Of a stretch of DNA of 64,000 nt, positions 26,703-41,991 are shown piece after piece. Source of the stretch: Ignavibacteriales bacterium (GTDB lineage Bacteria > Bacteroidota > Ignavibacteria > T3Sed10-11); contig PWTU01000190.1 of NCBI GenBank assembly GCA_003562775.1, positions 1-64,000 on the forward strand, read 5' to 3'. Positions within the stretch are counted from its first letter, which is position 1. The number at the start of each line of letters is the position of its first letter. The position numbers were made by a program, and so were the translations under genes. The notes under the pieces were generated by a model. It searched no databases and was not told where the DNA came from. It worked only from the letters and a program-made list of their open reading frames with translations.

Positions 26703-27590
26703 ATGATTGAAAACAGGATTTGTATGAAGCAGCGGGTTGTTTTATTTTTAAAATTGACCGGAATATTATCACTATTCATTTTCTTTATTGCGGGGTGTGG
26801 AAGACGCGACGTCACGGTTGATATGTCTGTAGAAGACCGGTTCCAGCGTGGTATGCGGATGTACGAAGAGGAAAATTATGTCAGGGCTATCGATGAATTC
26901 CGGATTGTTACACGTCAGTTTGCAGGAAGTGACTTCGCCGACGACGCACAATACTACATGGCAATGTCGTATTTTCAACGGGGGGAGTATATACTCGCTG
27001 CCAACGAGTTTGAGACGCTGGTCAATACTATGAGCGCAAGCCCTCTCGTTGCCGAGGCACAATATAAACTCGCTTTGTCTTATTATCACCTGTCTCCAAG
27101 ATACGATCTCGATCAGGAATATACGTTTAAGGCGATCGATGAGTTGCAGGCATTCATCGATTTTTTCCCGACGCATGAATTGGTGCCGGATGCCGAGCGA
27201 AAAATTCACGAACTCAATGAAAAATTAGCCCGCAAGCAGTATGAAAATGCAAAATTATATATGCGCATTCGATATTACAGGGCTGCAATTCGATATTTTG
27301 AAGTTGTGATAGAACGGTTCCATGATACTCAATATGCCGAGCTTTCGTATATCGGTAAAGTTGAGGCATTGATGGAACGAAACATGTATAATGAAGCAAA
27401 TGAAACACTACAGGGGTTTCTTCGGCAGTTTCCAAACAGTGATCAGCGTTCGCGTGCACGTACACTCGAACGCCGTATCATCTCCGCATTAAGTGACGAA
27501 GATGCCGAATCCGAACACAATAACGGACCTGCCGCCGGAAATACCGGCAATAATGAACAGTCGGACGGAGATGGATTTGAGTCACGATAA
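26703..27590 (+). CDS. bamD: Outer membrane protein assembly factor BamD (TPR lipoprotein)
   Basis: Lipobox FFIAGCGRR; YVRAIDEFRIVTRQFAGSDFADDAQYYMAMSYFQRGEYILAANEFETLV. Confidence 0.85.
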   Translation: MIENRICMKQRVVLFLKLTGILSLFIFFIAGCGRRDVTVDMSVEDRFQRGMRMYEEENYVRAIDEFRIVTRQFAGSDFADDAQYYMAMSYFQRGEYILAANEFETLVNTMSASPLVAEAQYKLALSYYHLSPRYDLDQEYTFKAIDELQAFIDFFPTHELVPDAERKIHELNEKLARKQYENAKLYMRIRYYRAAIRYFEVVIERFHDTQYAELSYIGKVEALMERNMYNEANETLQGFLRQFPNSDQRSRARTLERRIISALSDEDAESEHNNGPAAGNTGNNEQSDGDGFESR

Positions 27591-28062
27591 ACGCACTCCG
27601 AAAGATTCGCAGGTCGAAATGACCGAAATGGTATTGCCGAACGACACCAATACGCTTGGAAATATGCTCGGGGGTAAATTAATGCATCTCATCGATATCG
27701 CCGCGGCAATAGCGGGAGCGCGTCATGCGAATAAAGTCGCAGTTACGGCATCGGTTGATGAACTTAATTTTCTGCACCCGATCAAGCTTGGCGAAGTAGT
27801 GATACTGCGGGCATCGGTTAACAGGGTCTTTAATACATCTATGGAAATCGGAGTTAAAGTGTTTTCTCAAAATTTGCGTACCGGGGAATTGATACACGCC
27901 AACAGCGCGTATCTGACATTTGTAGCACTTAATGACAACGGAAAACCGTCGCGCATTGCTCCGATTTATCCCGAAAATGAGGAAGAGAAACGGCGCTATC
28001 GTGAAGCGCTTGAACGAAGAGATCGCCGTTTGCAGCATCGCAAACATCGAAAGAAATCGTGA
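27571..28062 (+). CDS. Acyl-CoA thioesterase (hotdog fold, YciA/BACH-like)
   Basis: MVLPNDTNTLGNMLGGKLMHLIDIAAAIAGARHANKVAVTASVDELNFLHPIKLGEVV. Start moved from the track's 27493 to ATG 27571 to reduce overlap with bamD. Confidence 0.88.
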   Translation: MDLSHDKRTPKDSQVEMTEMVLPNDTNTLGNMLGGKLMHLIDIAAAIAGARHANKVAVTASVDELNFLHPIKLGEVVILRASVNRVFNTSMEIGVKVFSQNLRTGELIHANSAYLTFVALNDNGKPSRIAPIYPENEEEKRRYREALERRDRRLQHRKHRKKS

Positions 28063-28065
28063 ACA

Positions 28066-30264
28066 ATGCCGGGTAAAGGGGATTTAAAACAATATCAAAG
28101 AGTTGCAGTATGCGTTCTGCTTATTACCACGGGCGTAATCATACCCCCACGTGTCAACGGTGATATTATCAGGAACGTTCCCGTTGGCCCGGTAGACTTC
28201 ATTCCTCTCCAATACAAACCGAGTAGTATGTTGGCCGCACATCCCTTGGAACGCGACGTTCAGAATCTGATTGTGACCTACACCTCACCCGTTCTGTCGA
28301 TTATCAACGGCGATGAATCTGTTACCGTCAATCTTGATCACATTCCTGCTATACTCGAACCGATGCGCAACCGGGACAAACCCGATAATCTTGTCTACGT
28401 ACCGTTGCATAAAAATGAAATCCATATTATCCGGTACGATAGGAATGAGGGAATTTTCACAACCGTTTCTGAAATGAGATTGGATAATATACCTGTTTCC
28501 CTGCGAACCGTAGATGTAACGGATAACGGACATGACGATATTTTGTTGCTGATGCAAAACACAACCGGTGTCGGTTTTATTCGCAATAACGGCAACGGCA
28601 GCTTTGAAGAAATTGAATATTTATTCGAAGAAATTCTTGTTTCTCAGTTTCAGGTAGTGGATATCAACGGTGATGGGATTAATGATTTTATTTTATTCGA
28701 TCCTGTACAGAATGCGATCCTTTTTCAGTATGGATTCGGTGATATGGTTTTTTCACTTGGACGGGTACAAAGTTTGCCTGCGCCGATTTCTTTTTTCCGG
28801 GCGCTGCCGATTGTAGAGGATTCGATATATGATCTTATAACGGTATCGCCGGAGAGGAAAGAATTCAACGTCTTTTTGGGTGATGGCCTCGGCCGGTACC
28901 GACATATACAAACCCACAAATTATCGTCAGGAAAACAATCAATTTTGTTTACAGCTCTGTTTAAAAATAACCGTCCCGATGTTGCAATGGCAGAGCAAAA
29001 CACCGGTTTGCTTCGTTTATATCGCAATAATACACTAAGGGGATATGAACCGGCCGGTATTATACAACTTTCTGCCGGTATACGCGATATCATACTTTTT
29101 AATGACGCGAAATCCGGTACAGATTATCTGTATGTACTCGACATCGATAATGACAGGTTGATTGTACTCCCGTTGCTGCCGTCAGAAGAAAATTTTTTAC
29201 CATCTAAACTTGTCCTTTCATCAGAAGCAAATGATTTGGTCTCCGGCAACTTGTTGGAGGGCCAACGACCGGAATTATATGTGCTTTGCAAAGAATCTGC
29301 GATAATATCTGTTTACTGGTACAACCGCAAGCATGAATTAAATCATTCTATGATACCCGTGCCGGGAAATCCGGACAATCTTTATATTGCACGCGGGCCT
29401 GAAGAAAAAATAAAACTCGTCGTTTCCGATCGAAAAACGGATATCATCACGATTATATCGATACACCGGGATCGAATTGAAGCGAATTTGTATGGCATTC
29501 CGGTTATGAAATCTTCCGAAGTGATCTATCTTGGAGTATCACCGGACGAACGATTTAAATTAGGGATGCTTTCTTATCCTTCCGTTCACCATACTCCGAC
29601 ACTTTCAGTTTTTGAACAGATCACCAGCGATGAATACATCGAACACACCATTACCCCGATAAAAGAAGGAGAAATTATTGCGCTTGACGTAATAGATATA
29701 ACCGGAAATGATGCGATTGATATCGTGTATATGTACCGGATGGAGAATGAGCAACAAGTGTATGTTACATCGGCATTAAACGATTCTGATTATACTTATA
29801 GAAGACAGGGAAATATATTATCACTGGAAGATTCAACCTCAACCCGTGGGTTTATCATTTCCGAAAGTACGCCGGATAATCATCTTTCATCGTTTATAAT
29901 ATATCTTGGTGAAGATGAAAATGGCAGAGGGCGCATCCGCAGGGCTACTGCCGACCGGAGCGGATTGCTAACCTGGGTCGGCGATGAGAGGAGTGTTCCG
30001 GTTATTCGATCTTTAAACGAAATTGTACCTGCACGCTCACCGGTCAGTTCATATAACGATCTGGTGTACTACAATGAGTTGACAGGCCAAATTGAAATTA
30101 TGTACACTAACGAAGACGGTACATTGCAGTCCGCAAAACCGATAAGGAAAGTTGACAATTTTTCAGCATTTACGATGTATTACGAACCAATCGAAAACAC
30201 ACGTATGCTTGTTTTAGGCGAAAAGAATAAACCATATATAAAGTTTTTGCGCATTAATGAATAA
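28066..30264 (+). CDS. FG-GAP/VCBS repeat-containing secreted protein
   Basis: VDVTDNGHDDILLLMQNTTGVGFIRNNGNGSFEE, VVDINGDGINDFILFDPVQNAILFQYGFG. Confidence 0.8.
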   Translation: MPGKGDLKQYQRVAVCVLLITTGVIIPPRVNGDIIRNVPVGPVDFIPLQYKPSSMLAAHPLERDVQNLIVTYTSPVLSIINGDESVTVNLDHIPAILEPMRNRDKPDNLVYVPLHKNEIHIIRYDRNEGIFTTVSEMRLDNIPVSLRTVDVTDNGHDDILLLMQNTTGVGFIRNNGNGSFEEIEYLFEEILVSQFQVVDINGDGINDFILFDPVQNAILFQYGFGDMVFSLGRVQSLPAPISFFRALPIVEDSIYDLITVSPERKEFNVFLGDGLGRYRHIQTHKLSSGKQSILFTALFKNNRPDVAMAEQNTGLLRLYRNNTLRGYEPAGIIQLSAGIRDIILFNDAKSGTDYLYVLDIDNDRLIVLPLLPSEENFLPSKLVLSSEANDLVSGNLLEGQRPELYVLCKESAIISVYWYNRKHELNHSMIPVPGNPDNLYIARGPEEKIKLVVSDRKTDIITIISIHRDRIEANLYGIPVMKSSEVIYLGVSPDERFKLGMLSYPSVHHTPTLSVFEQITSDEYIEHTITPIKEGEIIALDVIDITGNDAIDIVYMYRMENEQQVYVTSALNDSDYTYRRQGNILSLEDSTSTRGFIISESTPDNHLSSFIIYLGEDENGRGRIRRATADRSGLLTWVGDERSVPVIRSLNEIVPARSPVSSYNDLVYYNELTGQIEIMYTNEDGTLQSAKPIRKVDNFSAFTMYYEPIENTRMLVLGEKNKPYIKFLRINE

Positions 30265-31933
30265 AGTTATTTCATATATCACCGCGCTATTGATCTGCAT
30301 AGGATATAACCTGTCTGCGCAGTATTATTCTGACGATTATCGGCCTGATATAATTCAGATGTTAAACGAGGGAAAAAGTTTACAGGATGTGCTCTTACCG
30401 TATGAAAAATGTCTCACCGCCCCGATGATGGAAATAAAAGCGCATTTTGATAAACTTCCTCCATCGGTTCAAATGGAAGTGAATGAAATGTTTTCGTTGC
30501 CGGTGATGGAAACTTCAATGATTAGTCCGGACGGACTTTTTAAAATTCACTACGATACGTCGGCTTCGAGCCCGCACACGCCGTCGTTAATCGATGAAAG
30601 CGGGAATGGAATACCGGATTACATCGATTCAGTTGCGTCTATTTTTGATCACGTTTGGCATTATCAGATCGATGTGCTCGGCTACGAAAGTCCGTATATT
30701 GGCGATAGCGGTTGTTATCACGTATATGTGGTCAATATGCGAGTACGATTTCCCAGGCCTTCGTATGGGGCTACCATACTTTTAGAACCGGTAAGTGATG
30801 AAGATGAATATGCTACACGGTATAAAACTTATAGTTATGTCGATCACAAATACGAAGGATTTGCAACTCCCGGTTTAGATGGGCTGAGAGTAACGGCAGC
30901 TCACGAATTCCACCACGCGATTCAATTTGGGGCGTATGGGCATTCCGGTGCTGCTCACTCGCTTTTTTTCTATGAAATAACATCAACATGGATGGAAGAT
31001 GTAGTTTATCCTGATATTAACGACTATTACAATTATCTCAGACATCTGTTTGTCGAAACCCATACCAATCGTCCCTATCGAATACCGTTTTATCACAGCT
31101 CGGGTATTCATATGTATGCGCGTGCTATTTGGGGTATCATGATGGAGCGGCGATACAACCGGCACATAATGCGTGAAAAGTGGGAATATATCAGACATAG
31201 TCACCCGATTGATGCCATTGACTTGGCATTGCGAAATCACGGATCGACACTCGAGCAAGAGCTTGCCGAGTTTTATCTCTGGAAATTTTATACCGGGTCG
31301 AGAGCCCGTCCGGATAAATACTTTATCGACGGTGCGGATTATCCGATGCTGTCAAAAAAAACGCCGGTGATTCAACATCTGGGTGAATCGATGTTCAGAG
31401 ATGTCAATGTATTAATACAAACTCTGCATGTTCATGCGGTTACGGCCGGTGAACAGGATACGGTTTATTTTTTAGTGGGTAATGTTGAGAATGCGTTGAC
31501 CGATGGCGAAGAGTTTTATGAGCTGACGGTTTTCTCGGAGCGACAGCCGGATACTCTCCCAATAGGAAACGGATTATGGTATCGCCTGGAATCGAGTGAT
31601 TCGTCGGTTTGGAAAGTGTTTCCGCTTTATATGGAAACTCCCGTTGCCGATGACCGGGTATTGGTATACCCAAACCCATTTCGAACAGGGCAGGCGTCAT
31701 CCTTATCGTTTGTGATAGATACTTCAGATGAAGTTGATTTGACAATATTTTCCAGCGACATGCGCCTGGTATTCAACGATACCGTAAATCCGGAGAGCTC
31801 GTTCGATCGATCGGTCGTCCGGTGGAATGGTCTCGACAACAGGAATCGGCCGGTTGCGAGTGGTGTGTATTTGTATGTATTGCAATATAACGACGCCGTG
31901 CGAAAAGGAAAAGTAACTCTTATACGGGAATAA
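30257..31933 (+). CDS. Secreted MXAN_6640-family-like putative metalloprotease with T9SS type A-like C-terminal domain
   Basis: Signal peptide, DESGNGIPDYIDSVASIFDHVW, VTAAHEFHHAIQFG, STWMEDVVYPDINDYYNYL; C-terminal VYPNPFR...VRWNGLDNRNRPVASGVYLYVLQYNDAVRKGKVTLIRE. Confidence 0.85.
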   Translation: MNKVISYITALLICIGYNLSAQYYSDDYRPDIIQMLNEGKSLQDVLLPYEKCLTAPMMEIKAHFDKLPPSVQMEVNEMFSLPVMETSMISPDGLFKIHYDTSASSPHTPSLIDESGNGIPDYIDSVASIFDHVWHYQIDVLGYESPYIGDSGCYHVYVVNMRVRFPRPSYGATILLEPVSDEDEYATRYKTYSYVDHKYEGFATPGLDGLRVTAAHEFHHAIQFGAYGHSGAAHSLFFYEITSTWMEDVVYPDINDYYNYLRHLFVETHTNRPYRIPFYHSSGIHMYARAIWGIMMERRYNRHIMREKWEYIRHSHPIDAIDLALRNHGSTLEQELAEFYLWKFYTGSRARPDKYFIDGADYPMLSKKTPVIQHLGESMFRDVNVLIQTLHVHAVTAGEQDTVYFLVGNVENALTDGEEFYELTVFSERQPDTLPIGNGLWYRLESSDSSVWKVFPLYMETPVADDRVLVYPNPFRTGQASSLSFVIDTSDEVDLTIFSSDMRLVFNDTVNPESSFDRSVVRWNGLDNRNRPVASGVYLYVLQYNDAVRKGKVTLIRE

Positions 31934-32611
31934 ATGAATTCAATCATACTACAGCTTGAGAATATTCGTAAAGAATTCTCACGCCGGATAATCTTCGATA
32001 AGATCGATCTGATGTTGAAGAACGGAAATTCACTTGCAATTACCGGCATCAACGGATCGGGAAAATCGACGCTTGTTAAGATCATTGCGGGTATATTATC
32101 ACCGACTCGTGGTGCGTTAACATTGTCGGTAAACGGTCTTGAGTTGAAGATCGAACGATATCATAATCATGTCGGTTTTGTGGCGCCGTATATTCACATG
32201 TATGACGAGTTTTCTGCGTATGAGAATTTAAAATTTTTTGCACGTATTCGCGGGCTGACATTCGATAAACAATATGTCGATTACTTGCTCGATCGTGTGG
32301 TTTTATACGACCGTCGCAATGACGCGGTTCGTACCTATTCCAGCGGTATGAAACAACGGTTAAAATATGCCTTTGCACTATTACATAAACCGGAGGTATT
32401 AATATTTGATGAGCCGCGCGCCAATCTCGACAGGCACGGTATAGCGACGGTGTATGAAATAATGGAAGAGCATAAACCGGACGGCATTCTTATATTAGCC
32501 ACGAATGATCAGGAAGATCTTTCGTATGCGGAAACTATTCTGAACCTGGATGAGTTACGGATGGCGAAGGTTGGTGTGAAAAAAGAGCAAATTAATGTAG
32601 TGGCAAAATAA
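31934..32611 (+). CDS. ccmA: Cytochrome c biogenesis heme exporter ATPase CcmA
   Basis: ITGINGSGKSTLVKIIAG, TYSSGMKQRLKYAFALLHKPEVLIFDEP; first gene of the ccmABCDEF order. Confidence 0.88.
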   Translation: MNSIILQLENIRKEFSRRIIFDKIDLMLKNGNSLAITGINGSGKSTLVKIIAGILSPTRGALTLSVNGLELKIERYHNHVGFVAPYIHMYDEFSAYENLKFFARIRGLTFDKQYVDYLLDRVVLYDRRNDAVRTYSSGMKQRLKYAFALLHKPEVLIFDEPRANLDRHGIATVYEIMEEHKPDGILILATNDQEDLSYAETILNLDELRMAKVGVKKEQINVVAK

Positions 32612-32621
32612 TTTTAATCCA

Positions 32622-33287
32622 ATGATCCAACAAACAACGGCGGTATTTCTTAAAGACTTTCAATCTGAATTGAGAACCCGATATGCAATCAATGCACTCG
32701 TAATGTTTGTAATTACAACGTTATCGATTATCCTTTTCTCCATCGGCGGTGAACGGGTTTCGCTCGAGGTGCTTGCAGGAATGCTCTGGGTCGTTATTTT
32801 CTTCTCGGCAATGTCCGGTTTATCGAGATCGTTTGTAAGTGAGGAAGAACGTGGCACAACGATGACGCTCCAATTGTTGGCACAACCGGCGGTAGTATAT
32901 TTCGGTAAATTATTGTTTAATCTGGTGCTCATCATTTCCATCAATACACTGGTCGTTGCTTTGTATTTATTACTCATTCCTTTATTTGTCGTTCAGACGG
33001 CAAGCATTTTTTTTCTAACCCTTTTTCTCGGCAGTGTCGGATTGGCTTGTGCTTCGACCATAATTGCCGCGATAATTGCAAAAGCAAATTCCAAAGGAAC
33101 GCTTTATCCGGTGCTTTCGTTTCCAATATTGTTGCCGCTATTAATGACGGTAATGAACGCTACTAAATTGTCGCTCGACGGCGCTCCCTTTGCCGAAGCA
33201 ACCGGTGAATTTCGAGTGCTAATTTCATATTCCGTCGTTCTGATAGCGGTTTCCTGGGTACTATTTGATTATGTATGGAAAGATTGA
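32622..33287 (+). CDS. ccmB: Heme exporter membrane subunit CcmB
   Basis: FLKDFQSELRTRYAINALVMFVI, SEEERGTTMTLQLLAQPAVVYFGKLLFN, LYPVLSFPILLPLLM. Confidence 0.92.
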   Translation: MIQQTTAVFLKDFQSELRTRYAINALVMFVITTLSIILFSIGGERVSLEVLAGMLWVVIFFSAMSGLSRSFVSEEERGTTMTLQLLAQPAVVYFGKLLFNLVLIISINTLVVALYLLLIPLFVVQTASIFFLTLFLGSVGLACASTIIAAIIAKANSKGTLYPVLSFPILLPLLMTVMNATKLSLDGAPFAEATGEFRVLISYSVVLIAVSWVLFDYVWKD

Positions 33288-33474: not shown

Positions 33475-34188
33475 TTGAAATATAAGTTCTGGAAGATTTT
33501 TCTTGGTATTTGGTTAGCGATAGTCATAATCATTGGGTTTTCATTTGAGATTGTTGACTCACCTCAAAATTGGTATGAATTCCCGAATATACCCGGACTC
33601 GAGAACAAAGCCCGGATTATTTTTTTCCATGTTCCGACTGCGTGGATTGCAGTCGTAGCATTTTTAATGGCGATGGTCAACGGAATACGATACCTCCGGA
33701 AGAATGATCTTGAGTATGATGTACGCTCTTCATCTGCCGCCGGTCTCGGATTGATATTTTGCATCCTTGCTACGGTCACCGGTGCAATTTGGGCAAAGTT
33801 TAACTGGGGCGCATACTGGAATTGGGATCCCCGGCAAACGAGCATATTTGTACTTATGTTAATTTATGGTGCATACTTTGCCCTTCGTTCGGCGATAGAA
33901 GTTGACGAAAAGCGGGCAAGTTTGTCGGCAGTGTATGCGATTATCGCCTTTGTCACGGTTCCTTTTTTAGTGTTCATAATGCCGAGAATGATGAGCGGCT
34001 TACATCCCGGTTCGGCAAGCGATGAAGGCGCCGGGCCGGTAGTTGATTTTAGTATGGATACCACGATGTATATCGTTTTTATTGCATCTTTGTTCGGTTT
34101 TACATTGTTATATTTATGGATATATGAATTGAGAGTCCGGTTAGGTATGATAGAATTGAGGCATGAATCACTTCGGTCACAAGAATAG
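33475..34188 (+). CDS. ccmC: Heme exporter protein CcmC
   Basis: ARIIFFHVPTAWIA, WGAYWNWDPRQTSIFVLMLIYGAYFALR (WWD motif). TTG start. Confidence 0.93.
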   Translation: MKYKFWKIFLGIWLAIVIIIGFSFEIVDSPQNWYEFPNIPGLENKARIIFFHVPTAWIAVVAFLMAMVNGIRYLRKNDLEYDVRSSSAAGLGLIFCILATVTGAIWAKFNWGAYWNWDPRQTSIFVLMLIYGAYFALRSAIEVDEKRASLSAVYAIIAFVTVPFLVFIMPRMMSGLHPGSASDEGAGPVVDFSMDTTMYIVFIASLFGFTLLYLWIYELRVRLGMIELRHESLRSQE

Positions 34189-34198
34189 GAGATATTGA

Positions 34199-34339
34199 TT
34201 GGAATCATTATATGATTTTCTCGATAAGCATGATATTTATATAGTACTGGTAGTTGTGCTTGTAATCTGGTTGTTATTATATTTTTATTTATTCCGGCTC
34301 GATAAAAAAATAAGCAAAATTGAAGAAACAGGTAAGTGA
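34199..34339 (+). CDS. ccmD: CcmD family small membrane protein (not in the ORF track)
   Basis: 46-aa ORF from TTG 34199 to TGA 34339: MESLYDFLDKHDIYIVLVVVLVIWLLLYFYLFRLDKKISKIEETGK. One TM helix plus basic tail, located between ccmC and ccmE. Confidence 0.8.
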   Translation: MESLYDFLDKHDIYIVLVVVLVIWLLLYFYLFRLDKKISKIEETGK

Positions 34340-34386: not shown

Positions 34387-34797
34387 ATGAATACAAAAGC
34401 AATCGTGGCGGGTGTTATTATCGTAATATTTCTCATTTTTGGAGCGTGGTCGTTCCTCGAGAGTAATGTTGAGTATACTGATTTCCAGTCGGCTTATGAG
34501 ACCGGACGAACCGTTCAGGTAGAAGGCACCTGGGTGAAAGAAAAAGGCGAGCGATATGATGCGAATCAAAATGAGTTTACATTTTATATGGCTGACAAAA
34601 ATGATCAGGTAGTCCGCGTAGTGCTTGAAGGTCCCCGTCCGAATAATTTTGAAATAGCCACCAGTGTCGTTGCGCGCGGCCGCTTCGTGTCGGAAGATGA
34701 GTTTCGCTCGACGAACGTGCTCACCAAATGCCCCTCAAAATATGAGGGTTCCGTTGAAGAAATGATGGGCGGCGCAGAGAAGCAATATTATGAATAA
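34387..34797 (+). CDS. ccmE: Cytochrome c maturation protein CcmE, CXXXY variant
   Basis: VQVEGTWVKEKGERYDANQNEFTFYMADKNDQVVRVVLEGPRPNNFE...VLTKCPSKYEG; Cys115 and Tyr119 at the usual HxxxY site. Confidence 0.88.
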   Translation: MNTKAIVAGVIIVIFLIFGAWSFLESNVEYTDFQSAYETGRTVQVEGTWVKEKGERYDANQNEFTFYMADKNDQVVRVVLEGPRPNNFEIATSVVARGRFVSEDEFRSTNVLTKCPSKYEGSVEEMMGGAEKQYYE

Positions 34798-34838: not shown

Positions 34839-37133
34839 ATGATAGGCAGTATTATAATTAAAATCGCATTTCTCGGAATAATAGTATCGCTTGGCGCCTA
34901 TTATCTCTCGTTTAGAAATCAAAACCAAAAGTTTCTACCCTATGCACGCGCCGGATATCATACAGCAGTTGTCGGACTTATGATCGCATCGGCAATACTT
35001 ATGTATCTTATCCTGACGCATCAATTTCAATATACTTATGTCTGGAGCTATAGCTCCACAACGCTCCCCACCGGATTGTTGGCCGCTTCGTTCTGGGCGG
35101 GTCAGGAAGGCAGTTTTCTTCTTTGGGCGCTGTTAGCAGGTTTGGTCGGAGTGTTTCTGATGTCATATGCCACCAATAAAGGATATGAAGGTCAGTTGAT
35201 GTTTGTATATTCCTTGATTGTCGGTGTACTGTTGCTGATGCTCATCGTGAAAGACCCATTTTTACGGGTCTGGCAATCGTTCCCCGGACAGGTTGAAGCA
35301 GGATTTATTCCGCCGGATGGGCGAGGTATGAACCCACTTCTGCAAAATTACTGGATGGTTATCCATCCACCGATATTATTTGTCGGATTTGCAGCTATGG
35401 GTGCAACGTATGCCTTTGCGGTTGCTGCGTTATTGAAAAAAGATTACACGCACTGGGTTCGACCGGCAACACCCTGGTTTGCATTCGGTGTGCTGTCGCT
35501 CGGGCTGGGCATAATGTTAGGCGGTTACTGGGCGTACGAGACTCTTGGCTGGGGTGGTTACTGGGCATGGGATCCGGTAGAGAATTCATCTCTTGTACCA
35601 TGGCTTATCGGACTTGCAGCGTTACATACAATGCTGGCGCAGAGACGCAGCGGGGCATTTGTGCGTACTAATCTGATACTCGGGATTTTGACGTTTGTGC
35701 TTGTTCTATATAGTACATTTTTAACCCGTAGCGGTGTTCTTGGTGCTACCTCCGTACACTCATTTGTGGAACCCGGCTGGATGGCATATATACTGTTATT
35801 GTCTTTTATCATATTCTTCGGCGGTTTCGGTTTGCTGTTGTTGTTTGTGAGAATGCGCGAGATGCCGAGCGTACCGATTGAGTATAATTATATGTCGAAA
35901 GAGTTTGCACTATTCCTGGGGTCGGCATCGCTTATTTTTATTGCATTGTTTACTATTGTCGGGACATCGTCGCCGATCATTACCAACTTGATCAAAGGAC
36001 AGGTGAGCGCTGTAGATATTTCGTTCTATGAACAAACCACCACGCCATTTGGAATTGCAGTTGCATTCCTTGCCGGATTTGCACAGATACTGTGGTGGAA
36101 ATCTTCGAAAACAAGAAATATTTTAAAGAATATGCTTCCCGCTTTGATAATTGCCGCTATTGCAACCGGGATTATGATCGTAGTCGGATTGTCAACCATT
36201 ATGATGATCCTGCTGACGTTTGCCGCCTGGTTTGTGCTGGTAGTAAATATACAAATGGCTTTCAAGATCGGACGCGGTAACCCCCGGTTTATCGGTGGAG
36301 CAGTCGCCCATATCGGCGTTGGTTTACTCTTTCTTGGATTTATTACAACTGCAATGTACGACCGCCAACAAACGATCCAACTTGTACAAGGTGAGCCGGT
36401 TGAAGCGCTCGGGTACACGTTAACCTATACCGGATATTCGCCCGCCGGCCACGAACGCTGGGCGTTTAATGTTACCGCTGAACGAAACGGCAGAACCATT
36501 AATCTTGCACCGGTAATGTATCAAAGCGATTTCAACAATAGCTTAATTCGTAATCCCGATATTGTGAACCGGTTGACATTCGATTTTTATCTTGCTCCGC
36601 TCGGCCTTGATACAAAAGAGGTTGAAGGCGTTGCAGGGAGTACACATACCCTCAATAGAGGTATAGCAAAGACATTTGAGGATTATTCTATTACCTTTGT
36701 CGGATTCGATATGGACGCCGATCGGCATATGATGGGAAGCTCGAATGAGATGGTTATCGGTGTTATGCTTGATGTTACGCACGATGGATCCACCGAACGG
36801 GTTATACCGGAAGTCGTTAATCGCGCCGGAGAAATGGATTTCAGACCCGCGATGACTTCGGATGCGGCATTACAGTTTAATATTCAATCGATACGTCCGG
36901 ACCAGGAGAACCCCGATCGCTCAAGCGTAAGAGTTGAAATCGTAAAAGGCGGAACCACCCTTACCTCATCGGGGCCTGCAAGAACGCAGGACGTGCTTGT
37001 CGTTGAGGCGAGCATTCAGCCGTTTATTAATCTGGTATGGCTCGGAACAATCGTAACTATAATTGGTTTAATTATCACGATCGTTCGCCGTGCGCGGGAA
37101 GCCAGACCGAGGGATCAGGAATCGTGGGGGTAG
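34839..37133 (+). CDS. ccmF: Heme lyase CcmF
   Basis: WAGQEGSFLLWALLAG, GGYWAWDPVENSSLVPWLIGLAALHT, RSGVLGATSVHSF. Confidence 0.95.
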   Translation: MIGSIIIKIAFLGIIVSLGAYYLSFRNQNQKFLPYARAGYHTAVVGLMIASAILMYLILTHQFQYTYVWSYSSTTLPTGLLAASFWAGQEGSFLLWALLAGLVGVFLMSYATNKGYEGQLMFVYSLIVGVLLLMLIVKDPFLRVWQSFPGQVEAGFIPPDGRGMNPLLQNYWMVIHPPILFVGFAAMGATYAFAVAALLKKDYTHWVRPATPWFAFGVLSLGLGIMLGGYWAYETLGWGGYWAWDPVENSSLVPWLIGLAALHTMLAQRRSGAFVRTNLILGILTFVLVLYSTFLTRSGVLGATSVHSFVEPGWMAYILLLSFIIFFGGFGLLLLFVRMREMPSVPIEYNYMSKEFALFLGSASLIFIALFTIVGTSSPIITNLIKGQVSAVDISFYEQTTTPFGIAVAFLAGFAQILWWKSSKTRNILKNMLPALIIAAIATGIMIVVGLSTIMMILLTFAAWFVLVVNIQMAFKIGRGNPRFIGGAVAHIGVGLLFLGFITTAMYDRQQTIQLVQGEPVEALGYTLTYTGYSPAGHERWAFNVTAERNGRTINLAPVMYQSDFNNSLIRNPDIVNRLTFDFYLAPLGLDTKEVEGVAGSTHTLNRGIAKTFEDYSITFVGFDMDADRHMMGSSNEMVIGVMLDVTHDGSTERVIPEVVNRAGEMDFRPAMTSDAALQFNIQSIRPDQENPDRSSVRVEIVKGGTTLTSSGPARTQDVLVVEASIQPFINLVWLGTIVTIIGLIITIVRRAREARPRDQESWG

Positions 37134-37176: not shown

Positions 37177-37212
37177 ATCCCCGTATGTTTAATAAACGTG
37201 CGGGGATTTTTT
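37177..37212 (+). terminator. Rho-independent terminator of the ccm cluster
   Basis: ATCCCCGTATGTTTA / ATAAACGTGCGGGGAT long stem with two G:U pairs, then TTTTT. Confidence 0.85.
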
Positions 37213-38840: not shown

Positions 38841-39047
38841 TTACCCTACTCGATACCCCGCTTCGGTAACCTTTTGTTTTACTGCGTCGGGATTTAAATC
38901 TCGCTCGTGTGTGATCACGACGTTGTTCTCTTGATGTGATGCCGTTGCATCAATTACTCCCGGAATTGTTTTCAGCGCTTTCGCAACTGCCGCCTCACAA
39001 TGACCGCAAGACATTCCTTCAACTTTAATTGTAGTTTGCTGACTCAT
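38841..39047 (-). CDS. Candidate internally initiated CopZ-like copper chaperone, in frame with the copA 3' end
   Basis: Minus-strand ATG at 39047 preceded by AAGGAG (39059-39054) and a 6-nt spacer. Product: 68-aa stand-alone HMA domain [31 protein letters not shown]...EAGYRVG. Confidence 0.55.
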
Positions 39048-41336
39048 ATTGATCTCCTTGGAAGTCGTTTGTGGTTGATTGGTCGCAGGTGAAAATCTTT
39101 TTAAACGCAATGAATTACTTACAACCGATACCGAGCTCATTGCCATTGCAAAAGCTGCAAACATCGGATTCAATAAACCGAATGCTGCCAGCGGAATACC
39201 GGTAGTATTATATACAAAGGCCCAGAATAAATTTTGTTTAATTGTTTTAAACGTCCGTCTTGATATGGCGATCGCGTTCACAACTCCCTGCAGGTCGCCT
39301 CTTATTAATGTTATGTCGGATGCTTCCATTGCTATATCGGTGCCGCTTCCTATGGCGATTCCCAGATCCGCTTGTGCCAGAGCGGGTGCATCGTTTATGC
39401 CGTCGCCTACCATCGCAACGGTTATTCCCTCTTCCTGATATGCTCGTACGATCGATGCTTTTTGATCCGGCATTATCCCCGCTTTAAATTCATCGATGCC
39501 GACCTGTTTGGCTATTGCCTTAGCAGTTGTTTCGGTGTCGCCGGTAAGCATAATAACCTTTATACCTATCTGTTGCAACTGCCGAATTGCATCGCCGGAG
39601 TTATCTTTTATCACGTCGGCAATGCCAATCACCGAAGCCACCGAACCGTCGATTGCACTATATACGACAGTCTTCCCCCCGGATTCAAGCGCGTTGACGG
39701 TGGATTCCAGATGGCTCGTATCGATGGAGCGGGAAATTAGAAACGATTTATTACCGATGACAATTTGTTTTTTGTTCACCGTTCCGGCAACGCCGAGACC
39801 GGCATAAGAATCAAATTGCTCCGGCTCAAGCAGTTCACCATTATTTTCTATTGCATATTGAACGACTGCTCCGGCAAGCGGATGTTCGGATTTGTTTTCG
39901 AGCGATGCCGTAAAGTGGAGTATCTCTTTATCAGTATAGCTGCGGCTGACCGGTAAAAAATCAGTAACGACCGGTATACCGATCGTTATCGTACCGGTTT
40001 TATCGAATATTACTGTATGCACTGCTCTTGCTTTTTCAAGCGCTTCGCTGTTCTTTATGAGAATTCCCATCTCTGCACCTTTGCCGGTTCCGACCATAAT
40101 AGCAGTCGGTGTCGCAAGGCCGAGTGCACATGGACAGGCGATGATCAGTACGGCTACAAAGTTCAGCAGGGCGACCGTCAATCGCGAGTCTTCGGTTCCG
40201 GTAAAATACCATCCGATAAACGAAACAACGGCTATTCCAATCACTATCGGCACAAATACCGACGCAACTTTATCTACTAATTTTTGTACCGGCGCTTTGG
40301 ATGCCTGTGCATCCTGTACAAGTTTAATTATCTGAGAGAGCATGGTATCTTTACCTACCTTACTTGCAGTGTAGGTAAAGCTACCGCTTTTATTGATAGT
40401 CCCGCCGATTACCATATCGCCAGTTGATTTTTCAACCGGAATAGATTCGCCGGTAATCATTGATTCATCAACCGATGAATATCCTTTTTCGATTCGACCG
40501 TCAACCGGTATCCTTTCGCCCGGTTTGACGATAATTCGGTCGCCGACTTCTACATCTGAGATCGCAATGTCCTGTGCTGTCCCGTTGCGTAAAACACGGG
40601 CGGTTTTTGGCTGTAATCCCATTAACTTTTTAATTGCTTCGGACGTTCTCCCTTTTGCACGGGCTTCAAGCAGGCGACCGAGCAGTATCAGTGTTATAAT
40701 GACCGCCGCTGTGTCGTAATAAACATGCGGTGTTTCTCCGGCGCTCACGAAAACCGAAGGGATGAACGTCGCTGTGGCGCTATAAAAATAAGCGGCAGAT
40801 GTACCGATTGCGACAAGAGAATTCATATCGGCGGTATAGTGCTTTGTTACCGCCCAAAATCCTCTAAAAAATCTGCTGCCTCCCCAGAATAATACAGGAG
40901 TGGTGAGGACGAAAAAAATGTAATTCCAAGTTTGATGGGGCAGAGAATGAATAAAGGGGAATTTTTCCCACATCAATCCCATTTCAAAGACCGTTATCGG
41001 AATGGTGAGCAAAGCGCTCACAATAAATTTCAACTTTAAATCTGCATAATCTTTTTCACGTTGGGCGTCGCGGTCATTTTTACCTTTAATATCGGGTACG
41101 GAATATCCCGCTTTTTCTATGGCTTCTTGTATCGCTGTATCTTCCACTTTATCCGAACGGAACCGTATAACGGCATCTTCTGTTGTGAGATTGACAATTG
41201 CGTCGGAAACGCCGTCTATTGATTTCAACGCTTTCTCCACACGTGAGACGCAGCTTGCGCAGGTCATACCCGATATGGGAATTTTTGCTTGTGATATTTT
41301 TTCTTCGGACATAGTACAATTGTAACTGTTCTGCAT
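38841..41336 (-). CDS. copA: Copper-translocating P1B-type ATPase with N-terminal and C-terminal HMA domains
   Basis: [46 protein letters not shown], second [18 protein letters not shown] at the C terminus. Confidence 0.95.
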
Positions 41337-41412: not shown

Positions 41413-41991
41413 TCAGGTGAGTTTATCAATGGATTTTCTCTGATTACCGACCATTTTTTTGAATTGTGTCGGTGAAAGCCCGGTAATTTGCCTGAACTGA
41501 TTTGAGAGATGTTGTGTACTGCTGTAATTAAGCCGGTATGCAATCTCGCTAAGTGTTAGCTCCTCGTATTTAATCAGTTCTTTCACACGTTCGATTTTTT
41601 GGAGTATGACATACTTCTCGATCGTAATGTTTTCAATGGATGAAAACAAGGTGCTTAGATACTTATAATCCATGCCAAGTTTTTCGGAGAGGTAGGCCGA
41701 GAGGGTGAGACGATGTGCTTCGATATTATCCTCGGTGTAGTAAAGTAAATCAATGACTGCAACTTTTATCTTCTCAACGATTTTACGCTTTTTATTTTCA
41801 AGCAGTTCAAAGCCGTTCGATTCCAGTATGTTTTTAATCTCTTCATATGTATCCGGTGCGATATCGGTTCCGATTTCTACCTCTCCCAGCTCTACGCGCT
41901 TAACGGGTAGTCCGATGTTCTCGAGCTCATCCCTCACCACGCGGATACAACGTGGGCAAACCATATTTTTGATATATAGATGAGTAGTCAT
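41413..41991 (-). CDS. AraC-family transcriptional regulator with N-terminal HMA-like metal-binding domain
   Basis: MTTHLYIKNMVCPRCIRVVRDELENIG (CxxC) and the AraC HTH LSEIAYRLNYSSTQHLSNQFRQITGLSPTQFKKM. Confidence 0.88.
   Translation of the reverse strand: MTTHLYIKNMVCPRCIRVVRDELENIGLPVKRVELGEVEIGTDIAPDTYEEIKNILESNGFELLENKKRKIVEKIKVAVIDLLYYTEDNIEAHRLTLSAYLSEKLGMDYKYLSTLFSSIENITIEKYVILQKIERVKELIKYEELTLSEIAYRLNYSSTQHLSNQFRQITGLSPTQFKKMVGNQRKSIDKLT

Follow-up and report, generated by a model that had tools for sequence, protein, structure and literature searches.

A Cys-type cytochrome c maturation cluster of the System I* kind with an enlarged CcmF in an Ignavibacteria-like bacterium

Introduction

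A ccm gene cluster whose heme chaperone CcmE carries a cysteine at the heme-binding position, and which ends without ccmG or ccmH, raises the question of which cytochrome c maturation system it encodes and how that system manages without the missing partners. A variant with a Cys-type CcmE, System I*, is credited in reviews, reportedly, to Allen et al. 2006 (FEBS Lett 580:4827) and Goddard et al. 2010 (JBC 285:22882). The cluster considered here lies in a window of 64,000 nucleotides (the whole stretch of DNA analysed) from an Ignavibacteria-like metagenome-assembled genome (MAG), a 4.93-Mb draft in 588 contigs that is 85% complete with 7% contamination.

A compact ccm cluster with a cysteine at the heme site of CcmE

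All genes of the cluster are on the plus strand, in the order ccmA-ccmB-ccmC-(ccmD-like)-ccmE-ccmF. The ABC ATPase of the heme-handling complex, CcmA (31934..32611), is assigned by its ABC_tran domain and its position in the cluster; it scores 116 bits with TIGR01189 (ccmA), below the cut-off of 131.6. The gene of the membrane subunit CcmB (32622..33287) matches Pfam CcmB with 67.9 bits, and ccmC (33475..34188, TTG start), whose product presents heme to CcmE, matches Pfam Cytochrom_C_asm and reaches 114 bits, below the cut-off, with TIGR01191 (ccmC). Between ccmC and ccmE is a CcmD-like open reading frame of 46 aa (34199..34339, TTG start) with one transmembrane (TM) segment and a basic tail. 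The heme lyase/synthetase CcmF (34839..37133, 764 aa) is recognized by the Pfam domains Cytochrom_C_asm and CcmF_C and by its similarity to PDB entry 6zmq (E = 2e-67). An intrinsic terminator-like hairpin of 14 pairs followed by TTTTT (37177..37207) closes the cluster, and neither ccmG nor ccmH was found near it, in agreement with the preliminary description, which had given the same gene order and noted that CcmG and CcmH/CcmI are not encoded next to it.

The 136-aa product of ccmE (34387..34797, +) has a single membrane anchor, at its N-terminus, and a domain that matches Pfam CcmE (56.1 bits against a cut-off of 24.6); its closest named relatives are from MAGs labelled Ignavibacteriales bacterium (91% identity) and Bacteroidetes bacterium (88%). 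The sequence around the heme site is STNVLTKCPSKYEGS, with the site itself reading VLTKC(115)PSKY(119). The predicted heme-site codons C115-P-S-K-Y119 occupy 34729..34743 (+). In the sequence alignment, C115 takes the place of His130 of Escherichia coli K-12 CcmE (VLTKCPSKY / VLAKHDENY) and coincides with the cysteine of PDB entry 2kct (TKCPLEH), the only PDB sequence matched, which we take to be the CcmE of Desulfovibrio vulgaris. Together with the Pfam match, the alignment with His130 bears out the earlier identification of a CXXXY-type CcmE with the site LTKC(115)PSKY(119).

The surroundings of the cluster have some features of their own. Upstream of ccmA (27493-31933 of the window) are genes for a thioesterase (4HBT) and for a DUF6055-like secreted protein, in many cases separated by the gene of an FG-GAP protein. 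This neighbourhood is kept in 9 of 23 regions from the class (L009, L011, L071, L072, L079, L080, L084, L085, and L087); it is conserved and has no obvious link to cytochrome c. Downstream, a gene for a P-type metal ATPase (38841-41336, -) adjoins one for an AraC-type regulator (41413-41991, -) whose N-terminus resembles a heavy-metal-associated domain (NMVCPRCIRVV), possibly a metal-sensing regulator.

Partner proteins in the host genome and across the phylum

The proposal of a Cys-heme variant of Ccm that lacks CcmG and CcmH is supported both by searches of the host genome and by the pattern across the class. CcmE is present in a single copy, with no second one in the 85%-complete genome, and neither CcmI nor the System II proteins ResB/CcsB had a match in it. 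A dedicated CcmG was likewise not found among its proteins, none of which exceeds the family cut-off for DsbE; the genome encodes one DsbD and several generic TlpA/ResA-like thioredoxins, which could act as reductants. No protein passes the cut-off for CcmH (25 bits), and the single match below it (22 bits) is a divergent CcmH-like domain encoded on another contig (C203), outside the cluster. Substrates for cytochrome c maturation are present: there are six CBB3-type matches, and open reading frames with five and eight CXXCH motifs lie beside or under them.

The host assembly is fragmented, and at 85% completeness and 7% contamination, absences in it carry little weight by themselves. The same pattern, however, is found throughout the class, where CcmE occurs in 283 of 294 genomes and a CcmH match of any strength in 23 (above cut-off in 10). 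Among the good-quality genomes, CcmE is present in 262 of 265 and any match to CcmH in 21 of 265. In the phylum (393 genomes), 264 have CcmE and 13 a match to CcmH, which exceeds the cut-off in 5. The CcmH matches inspected, including that of the host genome, are divergent membrane proteins encoded mostly within metal-transport islands.

The residue at the heme site is a cysteine in all 85 CcmE sequences of the phylum that cover the site (84 CPSKY, 1 CPSRY; from about 79 genomes), the only His-type CcmE in the comparison being that of E. coli. Because the sample consists of the better-scoring loci, an occasional H-type CcmE may exist in other members of the phylum. Such conservation indicates that the motif is neither a product of chance nor a sequencing error. 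Within the class, and within the phylum as far as it was sampled, a Cys-type System I* is the usual arrangement, and this cluster is no exception.

A CcmH-like protein in trans and the role of C115

The protein on contig C203 (L002, 1156-1680, -), a membrane-anchored zinc-ribbon protein, could in principle be a very divergent CcmH that works with CcmF in trans. It belongs to a family (further members in L043-L052, L064-L070, and L111-L126) whose members for the most part combine zinc ribbons at the N-terminus with a single TM helix and with one or two CcmH-like domains, in which the cysteines are arranged as CxCGxC...C.C. Relatives match Pfam CcmH with up to 36.5 bits, which makes a distant kinship with CcmH likely, and both this match and the CxCGxC cluster favour a function in trans. 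So does the second CcmF paralogue encoded immediately past the ABC gene of the same island in four regions (L112, 2-1669; L113, 1448-3823; L117, 12365-14731; L120, 11151-13490); one genome with such a paralogue (G210) also keeps a ccmF adjoining ccmE (L032). The distribution of the family points the other way: of the 294 class genomes, only about 33 gave a strong match in a search with its alignment (weaker matches fall largely within the N-terminal zinc-ribbon part), as opposed to 283 with CcmE, and no member turned up close to ccmE in any of the regions searched. The usual neighbours are RND efflux genes, a zinc-ribbon FtrD-like protein (PF10080), an FtsX/MacB-like permease, and an ABC ATPase; in the host genome they are DUF411, a TonB-type receptor, and a zinc-ribbon FtrD-like open reading frame. 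The restricted distribution, the distance from ccmE, and the location in metal islands make a general role with CcmE/CcmF unlikely, and the C203 protein, at first sight the missing CcmH, was rejected as the general partner; that it nevertheless serves the cluster as a CcmH seems quite improbable.

Even less probable, to a degree that makes it almost negligible, is a reading in which C115 carries no heme and CcmE is either a non-covalent heme binder or no longer functional. It conflicts with the strict conservation of CPSKY across the phylum, with the requirement for the homologous cysteine in the CcmE of Methanosarcina acetivorans (PMC9084895), and with the covalent binding of heme by the Cys-type CcmE of Desulfovibrio (PMC3601427).

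CcmF has an enlarged, internally duplicated periplasmic domain

The CcmF of the cluster retains the WWD stretch (WGGYWAWDPVEN) and the histidines H176, H263, H307, and H491, which are invariant among its relatives and align with histidines of E. coli CcmF. A PEKR-type motif is absent, as had been noted in the preliminary description, but its absence is not diagnostic of a variant system. At the same position, E. coli CcmF reads AEKR and that of Thermus (6zmq) reads RPRLHFY, and the control genome of the genus Thermus, the source of 6zmq, has CcmH. As E. coli (AEKR) and Thermus (RPRL) depart from the motif as well, the lack of PEKR says little, and it was rejected as a marker of the variant.

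A more distinctive feature is the C-terminal periplasmic domain, flanked by the last two TM regions (residues 507-728; 36357..37022, +), which comprises about 219 aa, compared with 99 aa in E. coli. Nearly all members of the phylum compared have 192-355 aa here; L080, with 104 aa, and L012, which is truncated, are the exceptions. Compared as profiles, the two halves of the domain match with 93% probability (P = 3.4e-7), which indicates an internal duplication. An AlphaFold prediction of the full CcmF with four sequences has a mean pLDDT of 48; the periplasmic domain alone reaches 63, a low-confidence model with a repeated strand order, which gave no match with E < 0.1 in a Foldseek search against the PDB. 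The doubled domain is a new observation for this phylum and, judged from the sequences compared, looks specific to this lineage.

No CXXC motif occurs in the CcmF alignment (the partial open reading frame of L012 aside), which means that CcmF cannot stand in for CcmH in thiol chemistry. The doubled domain may have taken over the docking of apocytochromes from the lost CcmH/CcmI, so that CcmF by itself would be a full holocytochrome c synthetase in a form of System I* particular to this lineage; this scenario is unlikely. Among the best 25 matches to plasmid-encoded CcmF, none reaches past query residue 594, and the short CcmF of plasmid systems with a CPSKY CcmE indicates that a Cys-type CcmE does not require the duplication.

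Assignment to System I* and comparison with other Ccm systems

The gene cluster ccmABCDEF is very probably an ordinary System I* cytochrome c maturation cluster. It combines a Cys-type (CXXXY) CcmE with CcmA, CcmB, CcmC, and CcmF; the best match to CcmH in the 85%-complete genome has 22 bits and a metal-transport context, and CcmH is largely absent class-wide. Neither the HXXXY-type CcmE nor the CcmH and CcmI of canonical System I are found, and the absence of ResB speaks against System II. At the level of sequence, the assignment draws on gene content, the cysteine at the heme-site position, a single CcmE, and the presence of cytochrome c substrates, along with the lack of CcmI, ResB, and a CcmH above cut-off in the host genome.

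The preliminary description had considered such variants to be known already, and the exact motif has indeed been described: CPSKY is the commonest motif of System I*, present in 25 of the 36 genomes that have the variant (PMC3601427). About one-third of the bacteria with the variant retain CcmH, whose absence is therefore not obligatory, and a Desulfovibrio system of this kind matures cytochromes in E. coli without CcmG/CcmH (PMC3601427). The present cluster is one more instance of System I*.

For the attachment of heme to the cysteine, its transfer, and the supply of reductant, we infer the following. CcmABCD would hand heme to the periplasmic side and present it to CcmE, where Cys115 would bind it covalently, presumably through a vinyl thioether. 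CcmF, with its WWD motif and conserved histidines, would take over the heme from CcmE and, with no CcmH/CcmI as partner, ligate it to the CXXCH motifs of the apocytochromes, whose cysteines may be held reduced by DsbD and the general TlpA/ResA-like thioredoxins encoded elsewhere.

The cluster shares with other members of System I* the presence of ccmABCDEF and the lack of CcmG or CcmH in the cluster (PMC3601427), but differs in its doubled CcmF domain and in belonging to a lineage outside the groups named in the 2011 review, which are delta-Proteobacteria, Chloroflexi, and Firmicutes (PMC3601427). Whereas CcmI enhances the System I* of Desulfovibrio, none was found here. The streamlined archaeal Ccm of M. 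acetivorans also has a CXXXY CcmE and no CcmH/CcmI (PMC9084895), but it lacks ccmD, has a split ccmF, and is spread over four loci, whereas ccmD and a single ccmF gene are present here in one cluster. The order of CcmABCDEF and the CcmF histidines are shared with canonical System I (E. coli ccmABCDEFGH), in which, unlike here, His130 is in place of the cysteine and CcmG and CcmH are present. Two ccm clusters on Bacillota plasmids (L164, 6538-6999 and 8967-9464; L165, 6538-6999) likewise have a CPSKY CcmE and an adjoining CcmF but, in contrast to this cluster, retain an annotated CcmH and a TlpA-family gene; their CcmF (about 660 aa) is without the extended domain. The CcmH of a Cytobacillus plasmid is without CXXC (it reads CTDSMTADYC). 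A search of plasmids with the present CcmE as query gave no matches.

Implications

No description of System I* in this phylum was found in the literature searched, which itself offers partial coverage. The enlarged CcmF provides a concrete place to look for synthetase function without CcmH. To the groups that the 2011 review lists for System I*, the results add the CcmE-bearing members sampled from a large phylum, and the strict conservation of the cysteine across their CcmE proteins indicates that Cys-based heme handover is not a rare quirk.
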